This document shows, piece by piece, positions 33,897 to 62,623 of a stretch of DNA of 64,000 bases. Source of the stretch: Cloeon dipterum (taxonomy: Eukaryota > Arthropoda > Insecta > Ephemeroptera > Baetidae); assembly GCF_949628265.1 (NCBI RefSeq), contig NC_088786.1, positions 36,167,681-36,231,680 on the forward strand, given 5' to 3'. The notes under the pieces are model-generated. The model was given only the letters and a program-made list of their open reading frames with translations, did not search any database and was not told the DNA's origin. A program made the position numbers and the translations under genes. Numbering within the stretch: position 1 is the stretch's first letter; each line of letters starts with the position of its first letter.

Positions 33897-36800
33897 ATGA
33901 TGGAAGGAGAAGCAGCTTACGAGCCCTCAACGGCAGCCCCGACCTACAGCTACGATGAGGTGTTCCCGGCGTTGCCTGAGTCGGCGCCCGGCCCGCAGAC
34001 CACGTCCAGCCAGATGGGCCAGTGGAGCACGACCAACAACAAGATGCGCGTCGGCTCCTCCGTGGTCACCCAGGTCTTCAGGGTGCCGTACGAAGAGCGC
34101 AAAATGGACATGAGCGAACGCTTTGGCGAAGGCGACTCCAAGGGTGCGTGAATTTAGTTCAGAAAATCGTTTCGAAAAGAGACACACACACACTAACAAT
34201 GTTTTGTCAGACGCTCTTTCGTAATTCCTAGCATTCTTTTAATTTTTAAAATGGCGTGCAGGAATCTGCCAAGACATCATGGGAGAGACAGGGGCGCACA
34301 TCGAGATTTCCCAGTCCAAGGACCAGTCGCTGACGTTCCTGGTGACCGGCAAGCAGACCGCCGTGCTGGACGCCCGCAGGAAGATCCTGACGCACTTCCA
34401 GACGCAGGCGAGCACGACCATCTCGATCCCGAAGGAGTACCACCGCTTCATCCTCGGCAAAGGCGGCAACAAGCTGAAGGAGCTGGAGAAGAACACGGCC
34501 ACCAAGATCTCAATCCCGCCGACGGCCGACTCATCCGACAAGATCGTCATCACCGGCACCAAGGAGGGCATCGAGAAGGCCGTGCACGAGATCCGCGTCA
34601 CCTCGGACGAGCAGTCCAAGCAGGCCTACGAGCGCCTCGAGGTGCCCAAGATCTACCACCCCTTCATCGCTGGGGCGCACAACGAAAAGGTTGTTATAAT
34701 TTTTCATTCAAATAACTGGTAACTTTGAAATGAATTAATGCTTGACAACATTTTGATTGTGTAATTGGGCTGTTCCCTTTTGGAAGTTCTCTCCATTCAA
34801 ATTACAATGTTTTCGTGTCTAGCAAGCATTTTATCTTTAAAAATAGCCTGCTATTTGTTGGCTTCTCGAGGTCTTTTGATTAATTGATTTTGCTTTTGCT
34901 GCTGATAGCAAATAATTCCGACGTGATGTGTTTTCAAGCTTTGTTCCACACAAACAAACTGGATTTAAAAAATTTCCATGAAATTTTAAATTAATGAGTG
35001 CTGCAGAACAACAATATATTTAATTAATCGTTCTGAAATCACAATTCACGACACACGCAACGCTAAATGCATGAAAAATTTGACTCTTGAACTAAATTGA
35101 TTCTGCTTGTGAACTGCAGGTCAATGCCCTGATGAGCGAGACTGGCGTCCGCATCAACATTCCGCCTCTGTCTGTTCAAAAGGACGAAATCACCATCGCC
35201 GGCGAGAAGGAAGGCGTTATGCTCTCTAAGCAGAGAATCCTCAGCGTCTTCAATGAAATGGTCAGTTTTACATAAATTGCAAAAGTTCAGTCTGACCTGC
35301 AAAAAAAAATGCAGAGCAGCGTTAAAAAACATTATTTTCAATTTTTACCAGTTTCTTGCAGGCCAGGTTTGCACCTTAGTTTAAAATAATTTTCTAATTA
35401 TTAGCTCGGAACTAATTTTTTGGAGAAATTGAGACAGAAAATGGCATTTTAAAATAATAAATCTGCACAGTAGGGGAAATTTTGGCCACTCTGACCGCAA
35501 ATGTAAGATTTTCCGAGGGGAAAAATTAATTTCTTTCACGTCTTGCGCAAGAAATTGGTAAGCAACCCTGCATTCACATGATGACACGATGACGAGGCTG
35601 ACTCGTTTCTCTCCCGACTGGAAGGAGCAAGTTTTTTGATCCCTCTAGGAAGTCGAGAAACGAAATGATGCTTTGGCATATCTGATTAAAAACGCCAAAA
35701 CCCCAGCAAGCGGAAATGAAGCATCATTCATTCTGTGCTGTAATAATTATTGAGCCTTATCTGTGTGTTGCAGGCAAAGAAATGCGCAACTGTTTCCGTG
35801 GAAGTTATTAAGTCTCAGCACAAATACGTCATTGGACCCAAGGGAAGCTCGATCGCCGAAATCCTGCAGGAGACGGGCGTGAGCGTGGAAATGCCGCCAA
35901 GCGACACGCCTAATGACACCATCACCCTCAGGGGCCCTCAAGACAAACTCGGACAAGGTGAGAACCATTTTCATGCACCCTGTGTAGATTCAGTCTTATT
36001 AAAATGAAAAAATAATTTTTGTGAGATGATTCTCAAATAAATTAACTTAATTTTGGGTATTTTTATTTTCCCCCACTTTGTGCGAAAATAGTTTATTCAA
36101 GAAAAATTTGCTCAGTATGAAACAAACTGGAAATTTAATCAGCTTTCCGATTATAGGCAGTTTTTAACGCTGCTATCAACTGGTGAATTTTAATGTGGCC
36201 AAACTCAGACCCCTTTCAAAAATTTGCGATTTTTAAAAAAATATAAAATAACTGTCAACTCTTGAAAGTACTATTTCTTATCTTCTCACAATTAAATTTT
36301 CATTATTTTTATCACCCCAGAAGCAATTAATTTCCTTTGCTTAAGGAAGAGGGCGTAACCGGTAAAATTTCAATACTATCGGTTATCATTTAATATTCTC
36401 GTATTCTTAAATTAAAAATATCACTACCCTTCATCCCAAATTTAAAATAATATTATTGAAATCTAACATTCAAGAATTATGATAATAACCTTATGTTGTT
36501 GAAAAGGTATTGAACAACATATTATTTATTGTGATAATTCTGGCGTAAATATTTTCACAAAATATTTTTATCGACAATAACAGCTAGCAAAAATATTTTT
36601 AACGTGGTGTTTGTGGCCACAGATTTTAATCTAAGGCAGCTGTTCAGTAGAAACACTGTTAGTAATTATTTTTCGGTTTAATTGCAGCTCTGAGCATGGT
36701 GTACCTGAAGGCCAACTCTGTGCGCACGACGACCGTGAGCGCTCCAGCCTGGATCCACAAGTACATCATCGGCCGCAAGGGCGCCAACATCAAGCAGATC

Positions 36801-39800
36801 ACCCAGGACTTGCCAAAGGTTCACGTTGAGTTCACCGACATCACGGACAAGGAGGGCAAGATCAGGATCGAAGGGCCGCCCGAGGAGGTCGAGACTGCAC
36901 AAAAGTCGCTCGAGGATCTGGTGAGGAACTTGATTGGAACGCTGACGTTTGAGGAAATCGTGGTCGACCCCAAATTCTACAAGCACATCATTGGCAAGGC
37001 GGGAGTGAACAGTAAGTTTTGCGCCGCGAATTTACAATTTTGATTTTTAACCGATTTATTTTCCCGGCAGTCAACCGCATCAAGGAGGAAACAAATGTGA
37101 TCATCAACATCTCCGACAATGACGGAAAGAACATCATCCGCATTGAAGGAAACAAGGAGGGCGTGGCCAATGCCAAGAGGGAGCTGGAGGAGATGGTGCA
37201 CAAGTTGGAGAACGAGAAGGAACGCGACATCATCATCGACAGGCGGTTCTACAAGAGCCTGATCGGCTCCAAGGGTGAGAGGATCCGCGAGGTGCGTGAG
37301 AAGTTCAACCAGGTGCAGATCACGATCCCGGGGCCGGGCGACAAGCGCGACGTGGTCAAGATCAGGGGCGCCAAGGAGGACGTGGACAAGTGCTACCGGC
37401 ACATGCAGAAGCTGGTCAAGGAGCTTGGCGAGAGCAGCCACGTGCTGGAGGTGCCCATCTACAAACAGTTCCACAAGTACATCATCGGCAAGGGCGGCGC
37501 AAACATCCGCAAGATTCGCGACGAGACGCAGGCCCGAATCGACCTGCCAGGCGAGGGCGAGAAGAGCGACGTCATCACCATCACTGGCAAGAAGGAGAGC
37601 GTCGAAGAGGCCCGAGACAAGATCCAGAAGATTCAGAATGACATGGTAACCGCCGCGTCTCTCAGCTTCCCATTCGAACAGGTCGATTTTTTTTATTTTC
37701 TGTCAGTGACTGAGAGTTTTCATGGGTTTTATCATGGTCTAATTAGAGTGGTAGCTACATTGTCTCGCACACGCTAAAACCTGCATTTTTCTGGATTAAC
37801 ACTGCGTTGCTGGTTTTTCTGCAATTTTGCACATTTTTCTGGAACACAAATGCATTCTTGTGGAAGATCAAAAATTCGGATTTCACGAAATCAGTGATGA
37901 AGCCACTGGTTTCACCTAAATACCGAAAATTTCAACTCTCATTGTAATTTTCCAAAATTAACATTGTTTTGCGATTTTGACCAGCCAAATTTAACCAGGG
38001 TGGTTAAAAACGGTTAAAACCTGGCAATTTTTGGCTTGGCCTCTTTTTTTAAATTGGTTTGGAATTTATTGCTGAATTTAATAGCTTTTTTTTACGACTG
38101 AAACACTGATAAGATTATAATTTTGATGTTAAATTTATAATTTTCATCATTGAAGTCTTACAATTTTAAAATTTAAGGTGGAAATTTTCTTGAAATATTT
38201 ATTTTGTGAATTCCTTAGATTTTGCCAGCTTAAAATTGGCTGGCCAAAATTATTTCTAAAAAGCCGGCATATTTGGACACTGCGGGTGTCGCGTAAAAAT
38301 CTGGCGTTTCAAATAAAACCCTAGTGCTGGGAGGTAATAAAAAAAGGTGGCCACATTTGGCCCAAGCTCCTCTACTGCCATTTTATCCACTCATCAGCGG
38401 TGTTATTTGGGACCTGGTGAGCTCTTAGCCAATAGGCTCTAAAAATAAAAATATTGTTGTCACATTTTTGTTTTTAACTAACCAATCGGCCTGGGCTCAA
38501 AGGTAATTTAATTTTTCTATTTCACTAATCTGCCATTTTGCTTTGGTAGGCTAACATTGTGAGCGAGGACATCACCATCCCGCCAAAGCACTACAACTCC
38601 CTGATCGGTGCCGGTGGCAAGCTCATCCACGCCATCATGGACGAGTGCGGTGGCGTGACCATCAAGTTCCCTCCGACCGACAGCAACAGCGATAAGGTGA
38701 CCATCCGCGGGCCTAAGGACGATGTCGAGAAAGCGAAGCAGCAGCTGCTCGAGCTGGTGACCGAGCGCCAACTCTCGGGCTTCACGGCTGAGGTGCGCGC
38801 CAAAGCGCAGCACCACAAATTCCTCATTGGCCGCAACGGCGTCAACATCAAGAAGGTGATGATTTTTATGAGAATTGTTGTATTATTAAATTATGACTGG
38901 GAGATGGGATCAATCCTAGGAGTTCCATGAATATGAAAATATACTTATTAAATTTATTTGGCAGATCCGAGACTCGACTGGTGCTCGCATTATCTTCCCC
39001 ACGGACAAGGACGAGGACAAAGAGGTCATAACCATCGTTGGCAAGAAAGATTCCGTTGAGAAAGCAAAGGCTGAACTGGAGGCTACCATAAAAGAGATTG
39101 TAAGTAATGTTATACAAATCAGGGATGTTAAAAACCCGCATTTAAAAAAATTGGTAAAGTTTTTTTCAATTTTTACCAGTTTCCTGCAGGCAACGTTTGC
39201 ACCTGTTTTCAATGGCAATTTAAATAAAAAATCTGCACAGTAGAGGAAATTTTGAGCACTCCAAACGCAAATTTTAAATTTTCACTGGGGAAATAAGGAA
39301 TAAATTCAATTCTTAAGCAAGAAATTGGTAATAATTGAGTAGTAAAAACCAGGTGGTAAGCAAATGAATTCACATGATGACACGATGACGAGGCTGACTC
39401 GTTTCTCTTCAACTGGAAGGAGCAAGTTTTTTGATCCCTCTAGAAAGTTGAGAAACTGAGTGATGCTTTGGCATATCTGATTAATATCGCCTGAAAGAAA
39501 TTGAGTTGCCCCTAGATTTCCGCAATCAAAGCAATTTCAATTACTCTGGCTGAAACTAATTTGATTTTCTTAAATCTGGCGAATTGCTAAAATGGAATGC
39601 GCGTGTTGCAGGACAACATCGTGGAAAGCGACATGTGCGTGGACCCGAAGCACCACCGGCACTTCGTGGCGCGGAGAGGCGAGGTGCTGCACCAGATCGC
39701 GGACCAGTACGGCGGCGTGATGATCTCGTTCCCGCGCGCCGGCATCACCTCTGACAAAGTGGTGCTCAAGGGCTCGAAGGACTGCGTCGAGGGCGCCAAG

Positions 39801-41640
39801 CAGCGCATCAAGGAGATCGTGCACGACCTCGAGTCGATGATCGCGATCGAATGCATCATTCCACAGAAGCACCACCGCACCGTGATGGGCGCCAAGGGCT
39901 TCAAGGTGCAAGGCATCACCCAAGAGTTTGACGTGCAGATCAAGTTCCCAGAGCGCGAGAATTTCAACAACGGTGAGTCTTTATTTTTTTTTGTCCCGAA
40001 AGTGAAGGAAATGAACAATCTTTGCATCTGTGGTTCGCAGGCGAGCAGGAGGAGCACGTGAACGGCGACGGCGCGAACAGACCGTGCGACACGATCCGCA
40101 TCACGGGCAAACAGGAGAACTGCGCCAAGGCGAAGCAGGCGCTGCTCGACCTCGTGCCTGTGACCATTGAGGTCAACGTGCCCTACGAGTACCACCGCTC
40201 GATCATCGGGCAGAAGGGTCGCGACGTCCGCGAGATGATGGAGAAGTACGACGTGCACATTGTGCTGTCCCCCGCTGACCAGAAGCTGGACGTGATTAAG
40301 ATCACGGGCGCACCCAGCGCCGCCGCCAGCGCCAAGGAGGCCGTCGAGGAGCGCTGCAAGCAGCTCGAGGAGGACCGCGCCGACCGCCAGTTGCGCTCCT
40401 TCGAGCTCAAGGTGAGGCCACCCTCGCGATATTTACTTTAAAGAGGAATGGTAGGGAATTTCCCTGCAATATCTGTTAACACTATCTTTTCTCTTTAAAT
40501 CGATGGTATAATTTTATTAATTGACATGATGATTCGATGACGAGGCTGACTCAGCTGCAAATGGTTAAGAGCGCAAGTCTTTTGTTCTCACAACAGTTTG
40601 CAGCCGAAGTGATGCTTGGCTAGTCTGATCCAACTCTAAATAAATGCTTGATAAACCGAGCCAATCGTATTTAACTTCTAAATCAATAAAACCCACGGCT
40701 TGTTTCAGCTTGAGGTCGACCCAGACTTCCACCCTAAGATCATTGGCAAGCGCGGCGCTGTCATCACCAAGATCCGGCAGGACCACGACGTCCAGATCAA
40801 CTTCCCGAAGAAGGGGGACCCAGAGGAGCATATCATCACCATCACCGGCTATGAGAAAAACACGGAAGCTGCTAAGGAAGATATCATGAGGATTGTGAAC
40901 GAACTGGTACGTTTTTGAACCGTAAATTGCCAGATTTTTCAATTCATTTGGCTTCTGAATGTAATCCAAGCTAAAATTAACTGTCGTTTTAATCACGGGA
41001 ATGGTTTTCACGTTGTTGCAGAACAAGATGGTCAAGGAGCAAGTGTCGATCGACCACAGGGTGCACGCTCGGCTGATCGGCCAGCGCGGACGGGCCATTC
41101 ACAAAGTTATGGAGCTGTACAATGTAGATATCAAGTTCCCGCGCAGTACCGACCCCGACCCGAGCCTCGTCTCCATCATTGGTGCTGAAGAGAACGTGGC
41201 AGAGGCCAAGGAGTCCCTCCTGAACCAGGCCGAGGAATACGTAAGCATTTTATTTCAGGACACTCACACGGAACGGAATCACAAGTCTTTTGAGAAACAA
41301 CTGTCTCTTCTCCATTCACAACGAAAATCCTTTTCAGAGACGATTTTAATCAGAGGAAACTTAAAACTAAAGCGCGACGTCGGACTGATTGCAGATGCAG
41401 GATGTGAACGAGCAGCTGGAACTGGAGCAGTACACGCGGCCGTCGACGCGCTCGGACAAGGAGGGCGGCGCTGGGGCTAACCCCGGGGAGACAGGGTTCG
41501 TGGTGAAGGGCGCGCCGTGGGAGCAGTCGACGCCCAACACGTCGAGCATCGAGGACTTCCCGTCGTTCGGTGGCGACAACTCTGGTACTGCGGCGCCGGC
41601 GGCGCCCAGCACCAGCGGCCCCTGGGGCCCCCGCCGCTAG
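33897..41640 (+). CDS. HDLBP: Vigilin (multi-KH-domain RNA-binding protein; fly Dp1, vertebrate HDLBP)
   Basis: Vigilin is a ribosome- and ER-associated RNA-binding protein. The fly homologue also binds single-stranded satellite DNA in heterochromatin. Thirteen coding exons: 33897-34143, 34262-34689, 35120-35260, 35774-35957, 36688-37011, 37071-37645, 38550-38855, 38965-39099, 39612-39972, 40041-40411, 40709-40906, 41022-41240, 41395-41640, 1244 codons (human 1268). After an N-terminal PAM2-like region (YDEVFPALPES) come tandem KH domains. Their GxxG loops read GKGG, GAHN, GPKG, GRKG, GKAG, GSKG, GKGG, GAGG, GRNG, ARRG, GAKG, GQKG, GKRG and GQRG. A degenerate KH without the loop precedes them. 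The divergent GAHN and ARRG loops have counterparts in human vigilin. The C-terminus has GFVVKGAPWE, DFPSFG and PWGPRR as in the family. Coding GC is high. A distal AATAAA is at 43271. Confidence 0.97.
35282..35570. mobile_element. hAT-like MITE, family A, in vigilin intron 3
   Basis: The interior blocks of the family (TTTTACCAGTTTCTTGCAGG, AATCTGCACAGTAGGGGAAA) and the right terminus AGCAACCCTG at 35570 are present. The left end is diverged. It directly abuts the snoRNA candidate at 35572-35690. Confidence 0.65.
35572..35690 (+). ncRNA. C/D-box snoRNA candidate 1 in vigilin intron 3
   Basis: Ordered boxes: C ATGATGA (35578-35584), D' CTGA (35598-35601), C' ATGATGC (35665-35671), D CTGA (35682-35685). 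Between D' and C' is a helix, TCGTTTCTC pairing with GAGAAACGA, continued after a bulge by GACT with AGTC. The guide-like segment before D' is CACGATGACGAGG, and before D it is TTTGGCATAT. It ends about 85 bases before the next exon (35774), a usual distance for intronic snoRNAs. The terminal stem is weak. Box order, spacing and two paralogues support the call. The target is unknown. Confidence 0.6.
36009..36369. mobile_element. TTAA-type MITE, family B, copy in vigilin intron 4
   Basis: Reverse-oriented family B interior, including AGATGATTCTCAAATAAATT, GCTATCAACTGGTGAATTTT and GAGGGCGTAACCGGTAAAAT. Termini are not clear. Confidence 0.6.
37790..38060. repeat. Degenerate repeat related to family E in vigilin intron 6
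   Basis: It shares AACTCTCATTGTAATTTTCC-type sequence and GGTTTCACC motifs with the element at 15086-15338. No terminal inverted repeat was found. Confidence 0.35.
39117..39365. mobile_element. hAT-like MITE, family A, shortened copy in vigilin intron 8
   Basis: It contains TTTTACCAGTTTCCTGCAGG, AAATCTGCACAGTAGAGGAA and the right-hand AAACCAGGTGGTAAGCAAAT of family A, with an internal deletion relative to other copies. It lies directly upstream of snoRNA candidate 2. Confidence 0.55.
39366..39487 (+). ncRNA. C/D-box snoRNA candidate 2 in vigilin intron 8
   Basis: Boxes: C ATGATGA (39374-39380), D' CTGA (39394-39397), C' GTGATGC (39460-39466), D CTGA (39477-39480). The sequence is close to candidate 1 through most of its length. 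In the internal helix GACT/AGTC of candidate 1 is replaced by AACT/AGTT, so pairing is kept by a double change. The outer helix GTTTCTC/GAGAAAC is unchanged. The segment before D' is identical to candidate 1. The next exon begins at 39612, about 125 bases on. Confidence 0.6.
40521..40632 (+). ncRNA. C/D-box snoRNA candidate 3 in vigilin intron 10
   Basis: Boxes: C ATGATGA (40526-40532), D' CTGA (40546-40549), C' GTGATGC (40609-40615), D CTGA (40625-40628). The D'-adjacent segment CGATGACGAGG is the same as in candidates 1 and 2, but the internal helix is a different sequence, GCTGCAAA pairing with TTTGCAGC, and the D-adjacent segment differs (TTGGCTAGT). The fold is therefore kept while its sequence changed. 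It ends about 77 bases before the next exon at 40709. Confidence 0.6.
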
Positions 41641-62550: not shown

Positions 62551-62623
62551 CGCCCGAACAGGGACTCGAACCCTGGACCCTTAGGTTAAAAGCCTAATGC
62601 TCTACCGACTGAGCTATCCGGGC
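62551..62623 (-). tRNA. trnK-UUU: tRNA-Lys (anticodon TTT)
   Basis: The minus strand folds as a standard 73-base cloverleaf. The acceptor stem GCCCGGA pairs with TTCGGGC, with G as discriminator. The D arm is GCTC...GAGC, the anticodon arm TTAGG-CTTTTAA-CCTAA has anticodon TTT at 62590-62588, and the T arm CAGGG-TTCGAGT-CCCTG is intact with the GTTCGA box B. No intron is present. A run of seven T on the coding strand follows directly and serves as the RNA polymerase III terminator. It reads UUU/AAA-family lysine codons. Confidence 0.96.

Follow-up and report, generated by a model that had tools for sequence, protein, structure and literature searches.

Three introns of a predicted vigilin gene, in the 64,000 nucleotides of Cloeon dipterum DNA analysed here (the window), each carry a segment that is, in all likelihood, a box C/D snoRNA guiding the methylation of one conserved G of 28S rRNA. 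In the mechanism that we propose, splicing of the vigilin pre-mRNA and subsequent trimming would free the snoRNAs, and their C'/D' half would bind 28S rRNA via GATGACGAGG-CTGA, so that fibrillarin would 2'-O-methylate the G in CCTC-G-TCATC, a position that corresponds to Gm2288 in yeast, Gm2278 in Arabidopsis and, by our own count, G2596 in Drosophila. The D'-C' hairpin would close the internal C'/D' motif and keep the halves together, and the element beside box D would no longer guide the neighbouring A (human A3764; Drosophila A2589 by our own count), contributing at most an accessory pairing of 6-7 bp immediately 5' of the guide duplex. Expression, RNP assembly, methylation and accessory pairing are what we infer from the features described below. 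The mechanism itself is textbook, and the copies are a modestly modified known type.

The exons of the host, when joined, give a single open frame with a single terminal stop, and a 370-aa part of the predicted protein matches Pfam KH_1 (4e-75) and KH_Vigilin (5.9e-23), with a chain named Vigilin as its top PDB match; judged by this predicted protein, the host is vigilin. No vigilin- or HDLBP-hosted snoRNA was found in the literature searched, which largely excludes subscription papers. The copy-bearing introns are the 2nd, 7th and 9th among the 11 delimited from position 34500 onward, which agrees with the numbers 3, 8 and 10 given to them in an earlier, sequence-only reading if one intron lies upstream of 34500. 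That reading had placed boxes C, D', C' and D in the three introns, and all of them are present where it put them, with C and D in order and an internal C'/D' in every copy:

35578-35685, plus strand: snoRNA copy 1, box C to box D by box order, 108 nt, in intron 35261-35773; C ATGATGA 35578-35584, D' CTGA 35598-35601, C' ATGATGC 35665-35671, D CTGA 35682-35685
39374-39480, plus strand: snoRNA copy 2, box C to box D by box order, 107 nt, in intron 39100-39611; C 39374-39380, D' 39394-39397, C' GTGATGC 39460-39466, D 39477-39480
40526-40628, plus strand: snoRNA copy 3, box C to box D by box order, 103 nt, in intron 40412-40708; C 40526-40532, D' 40546-40549, C' GTGATGC 40609-40615, D 40625-40628

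Copy 2 is identical to copy 1 at 100 of 107 aligned positions (93%) and copy 3 at 69 of 103. The distance to the next exon had been put at about 75-125 bases; from box D to the 3' splice site it is 88 and 80 nt in copies 1 and 3, within that range, and 131 nt in copy 2, beyond it. A terminal stem is not clearly seen: beside the boxes 2-3 bp form, with near-terminal duplexes of -0.1 to -1.6 kcal/mol, and more extended external pairing could occur (copy 2, -13.3 kcal/mol); by contrast, a snoRNA-like RNA on contig C5, to which we return below, has an 11-bp terminal stem. Copy 2 also has an additional CTGA immediately 5' of C', at 39456-39459 (CTGAGTGATGC), a second D'-like box.

The segment next to D' had been described as unchanged in all three copies, and it is so to the letter:

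35588-35597, plus strand: D' guide GATGACGAGG of copy 1, 10 bp to 28S CCTCGTCATC in an ungapped scan, duplex -17.9 kcal/mol
39384-39393, plus strand: D' guide GATGACGAGG of copy 2, letters identical to copy 1
40536-40545, plus strand: D' guide GATGACGAGG of copy 3, letters identical to copy 1

A search for rRNA complementarity before D', as the sequence-only reading had proposed, shows that this guide pairs with 28S over 10 bp with no mismatch, flush against box D'. The 28S stretch used for the scan and the duplex calculation is supported by the genome's own 28S-like copies, a 21-mer being exact at 2 of 7 places and the copy at C5:1494431-1494539 showing 94% identity over 109 nt. In the stretches read, the target site sits in insert-disrupted copies, and none of these stretches shows an intact 28S gene there. 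The fifth-nucleotide rule, in the form stated in PMC5389607, makes the G of CCTC-G-TCATC the predicted methylation target, at position 5 of the 10-bp antisense. One row of the table in PMC8817022 equates Dictyostelium Gm2554 (CD14) with yeast Gm2288 (snR75) and Arabidopsis Gm2278 (AtU15), and the preceding row equates Am2547 with yeast Am2281 (snR13), human Am3764 (U15A/B) and Arabidopsis Am2271; Arabidopsis U15 addresses the G through its D' guide, according to a passage in PMC8053127. With the copies, a candidate guide of clear position is added for a conserved 28S mark that is listed in yeast, plant and amoeba and has no human entry in that table. We regard them as genuine and very probably functional guides of the Gm2596 type.

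The Drosophila number 2596 is our own, counted from the Rfam name snoMe28S-Cm2645 minus 49 nt, the target G lying 49 nt 5' of the C that this snoRNA addresses (the same spacing was counted by eye). A snoRNA:Me28S-G2596 is named among the exonic fly snoRNAs in a part of PMC5932544, unlike our intronic copies, which are likened to it by a name that fits the same 28S G by our count. In PMC13228274, a fly methylation map, the main text is silent on 2589, 2596 and 2645, so that the fly guide is known by name and the fly mark is without confirmation in that text. Elsewhere in this genome, at C5:1346001-1356000, 28S is interrupted beside the guide target and copies of the 28S target flank are spaced 119-129 nt apart. 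A long reading frame there resembles an R2-type rDNA retroelement, and the snoRNA guide could pair with the target-flank repeats.

Among known snoRNAs, the copies resemble the U15/SNORD15 group. The covariance-model search that had been suggested (cmscan of an 8-kb stretch at a loose threshold) places SNORD15 on copy 1 (22.3 bits, E 0.14), copy 2 (22.7 bits, E 0.11) and copy 3 (19.6 bits, E 0.66), all below the gathering score of RF00067 (75 bits); the matches, of which two alignments were printed, run through the C-box/guide/D' block. The same search gives E 0.91-1.3 for families without any relation to it at other places of the region, so the SNORD15 scores are unconvincing by themselves. 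The copies share with this group the block of C box, ACGATGACGAG and D' (copy 3 has TCGATGACGAG), the 28S site and the long RNA. They differ from it in lacking a D guide for the A, in their host, which is vigilin and not RPS3, and in an Rfam score under gathering; because of the absent A guide and the low score, we do not file the copies as SNORD15. Yeast snR75 (Gm2288), which is likened here by target alone, guides the equivalent G and leaves the A to snR13, as proposed for our copies, and a table in PMC3511168 unites RF00067 (U15), snR13 and snR75 in Rfam clan CL00045. The copies very probably act as snR75 and the D' half of U15 do. Plasmodium snoR21 (26.8 bits on copy 1, E 5.4, gathering 90) and Tetrahymena TtnuCD10 (23.4 bits on copy 2, E 7.9, gathering 85) have the same block and layout, and for neither do we claim homology. 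Three paralogs within one host gene are ordinary, since chicken U15 has three copies in introns 4, 5 and 6 of RPS3, as tabulated in PMC2653536.

Between D' and C', each copy carries a long helix, as had been noticed:

35602-35664, plus strand: spacer hairpin of copy 1, 63 nt, -23.2 kcal/mol, 0 of 500 mononucleotide shuffles as good
39398-39459, plus strand: spacer hairpin of copy 2, 62 nt, -19.0 kcal/mol, 6 of 500 as good
40550-40608, plus strand: spacer hairpin of copy 3, 59 nt, -22.2 kcal/mol, 0 of 500 as good; sequence largely replaced, pairing kept

Each hairpin folds with 19-21 pairs; taken as whole RNAs against dinucleotide shuffles, the advantage is modest (z -1.48, -2.64 and -1.45 for copies 1-3). 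The claim that copy 3 replaces the helix and keeps its pairing is borne out by two-sided changes at 6 of 21 pairs, a count reached by none of 500 shuffles and compared with 0-3 in slid controls. In the sequence-only MAFFT alignment of the three rows, 54 of 60 cells of the stem pair, and the observed number of further pair types is reached by 21 of 500 shuffles. The structure was derived from the same three rows, which represent in effect two lineages, and for this reason we regard the stem covariation as good, not overwhelming, evidence. When run on the full-length RNA, RNAalifold joins the guide regions to one another, which we took as an artefact, and 11 of its 32 pairs were dropped before counting. 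The difference between copies 1 and 2 that had been offered as compensatory, GACT/AGTC versus AACT/AGTT, is real in its letters and uninformative about structure, the pair probabilities being at most 0.014; folding favours CTGGA/TCTAG by 3.4 and 4.2 kcal/mol, and such a pair also arises in 1341 of 20000 random placements of 6 changes. Nor is the spacer of about 60 bases unusual, as had been thought, because U15-group RNAs are themselves long: the Rfam models measure 146 (SNORD15), 145 (Plasmodium snoR21) and 117 (Tetrahymena TtnuCD10), and chicken U15 is predicted at 158 nt in PMC2653536, possibly some 20 nt too long. Pairing of the apical loop to 28S, as in Arabidopsis U15, is limited to 6-7-mers, which we judged to be within chance.

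In the genome search, the exact block turned up in these introns only. We searched the 190-Mb genome with RTGATGA-N3-GATGACGAG-N-CTGA (RTGATGANNNGATGACGAGNCTGA) at up to 2 mismatches, the counts being lower bounds, and found at least 4 places, 3 of them exact and identical with the vigilin copies and one on contig C3 with 2 mismatches; the reversed-pattern control gave at least 2. Exact box C, GATGACGAG and D' were thus found together at the three vigilin-intron places only. The bare 15-mer has one further exact genomic place, on contig C2, which we rejected as a fourth copy, as by eye it is coding sequence without box C. A DNA search with copy 1 recovers copies 1 and 2 and one with copy 3 recovers itself only, so that equally diverged copies would escape both, unlike the pattern search, which recovers all three. 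Our own covariance model, built from the same three copies and hence no independent check, returned these and one minus-strand match of 16.7 bits in seven sequence sources, a smaller space than the whole genome.

It was claimed that functional RNAs had been copied from intron to intron of one host gene. The block, found in exact form here alone, the 10-bp match to a known methylated site, the stem changes of copy 3 and the higher identity of copies 1 and 2 than of the repeat beside them (93% versus 72%, see below) speak for this claim; the unusual spacer and the compensation between copies 1 and 2, which were part of it, do not stand. The alternative that survives best is that a single copy is active and the others are decaying, three copies reflecting dosage or drift with no separate roles. 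We consider this unlikely but worth keeping in mind: copies 1 and 2 are 93% identical, and intragenic duplication is described as the main source of chicken snoRNA paralogs in PMC2653536, but guide and boxes are intact in all three copies and the stem is paired even in the diverged copy 3.

How the copies arose can be approached through a dispersed repeat of about 250-280 bp that adjoins two of them:

35295-35570, plus strand: dispersed repeat by copy 1, ending in CAACCCTG 7 nt before box C, ends set by eye
39120-39366, plus strand: dispersed repeat by copy 2, 3' end shortened, stopping 7 nt before box C, ends set by eye
about 478-745: further copy of the dispersed repeat in the window

Among 800 candidates, 40 matches to this repeat were scored, with 73-81% identity (the query itself aside), and the repeat beside copy 2 was not among these 40; the ends look like inverted repeats by eye (CAGGGTTGCA and CAAATGCAACCCTG), and no such repeat was seen by eye in the intron of copy 3. 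The repeats by copies 1 and 2 are identical at 153 of 212 positions (72%), versus 100 of 107 in the RNAs (93%), a difference (Fisher 3.7e-6) that is meaningful only if repeat and RNA were duplicated together; if they were, selection has kept the RNA. One shared repeat insertion followed by duplication of the unit is the simplest reading. The repeat could instead have inserted independently beside each copy, in keeping with the single derived change that the two share (each shares up to 8 and 7, respectively, with other copies) and with their mutual closeness, which ranks only 18th and 12th of 22, so that they are not nearest to each other. Against independent insertion, the position with respect to box C is the same for both repeats, and a 41-row tree of the repeat does not reject one clade (p-AU 0.74; the held tree is 10.75 log units better, and no branch is starred).

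On the other side of the RNA, the element before box D was said to change in the third copy, and it does:

35672-35681, plus strand: D-side element of copy 1, TTTGGCATAT, which pairs with 28S GCCAAA over 6 bp at most
39467-39476, plus strand: D-side element of copy 2, same letters as TTTGGCATAT, 6 bp to 28S GCCAAA
40616-40624, plus strand: D-side element of copy 3, TTGGCTAGT, which pairs with 28S TAGCCAA over 7 bp at most

The longest 28S matches of the two forms (6 and 7 bp) lie just 5' of the guide duplex, and shuffled elements match at such length in 583 and 132 of 20000 cases, figures that come from related and not independent copies. We regard accessory pairing of the D side with 28S as a suggestive lead. 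By hand, both registers put the same 28S G, and not the A, at position 5, and the U15 guide for that A (GGCATTTG, human A3764) is absent from all three copies. That the copies are full U15 dual guides, whose D guide also methylates the neighbouring A, is therefore highly improbable: the GGCAT of GGCATTTG is kept in copies 1 and 2, but the D element pairs over 5-7 contiguous bp in other registers, and a separate RNA on C5 carries TGATGAATACGAAGGCATTTGTCTGA. The pattern TGATG-N1-30-GGCATTTG-N-CTGA has one genomic place, C5:8292857-8292882 on the minus strand (control 0). It falls within that RNA, which is box C/D-like and has a relative at a distance of about 0.9 kb:

contig C5, minus strand, near 8292.9k and 8292.0k (L031 about 1501-1590 and 606-701): pair of box C/D-like paralogs, carrying GGCATTTG and GGCATTTA

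The relative with GGCATTTA is the one with the 11-bp terminal stem. Both RNAs carry an upstream GCTACCTTA, antisense to 28S TAAGGTAGC, and this element and the A guide are both antisense to 28S around TAAGGTAGCCAAATGCC; GCTACCTTA is a possible accessory element. An extra base-pairing region of yeast snR13 has been shown to matter (section 12 of PMC5389607). A cmscan of this stretch found no box C/D family and gave a weak H/ACA match, SNORA21 (18.1 bits versus 80), overlapping the second RNA. One hand-read part of the host matches Pfam GIP1_N at 24.8 bits, under the cut-off of 26.4, and two other frames gave no Pfam match. By resemblance, the host may be a UBAP2/lingerer relative.

We tentatively suggest, as a possibility of rather low probability, that this lineage has split the ancient dual guide U15, the vigilin-intron RNAs keeping the G guide while their A guide became an accessory arm, and two RNAs in another gene taking over the A guide with an accessory element of their own. 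If so, the accessory arm would pair with 28S (T)AGCCAA(A), 2-3 nt 5' of the G-guide duplex, and both arms could bind at once; in Arabidopsis U15 the two spacers cannot bind simultaneously, per a section of PMC8053127. This may be a clean case of a dual-guide snoRNA with its two functions in different host genes, and the possible split would be useful for testing how guide arms turn into accessory pairing arms.

That the boxes arose by chance in an intronic repeat family is barely credible: the dispersed repeat does adjoin copies 1 and 2, but the block lies outside it and has 3 exact genomic places against 40 scored repeat copies among 800 candidates, and the intron of copy 3 is without the repeat by eye.

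Two further observations concern other small RNAs. At C5:14918459-14919549, four snoMe28S-Cm2645 matches cluster within 1.1 kb (25.9-30.4 bits, gathering 48), possibly another within-gene snoRNA expansion; sub-threshold matches to this model also occur in 9 of 14 prokaryote genomes used as a control, and it is therefore the clustering, not the score, that counts. In the window itself, an Rfam scan at gathering thresholds returns only a tRNA gene, at 62551-62623 on the minus strand (73.4 bits), whose anticodon reads TTT by eye.
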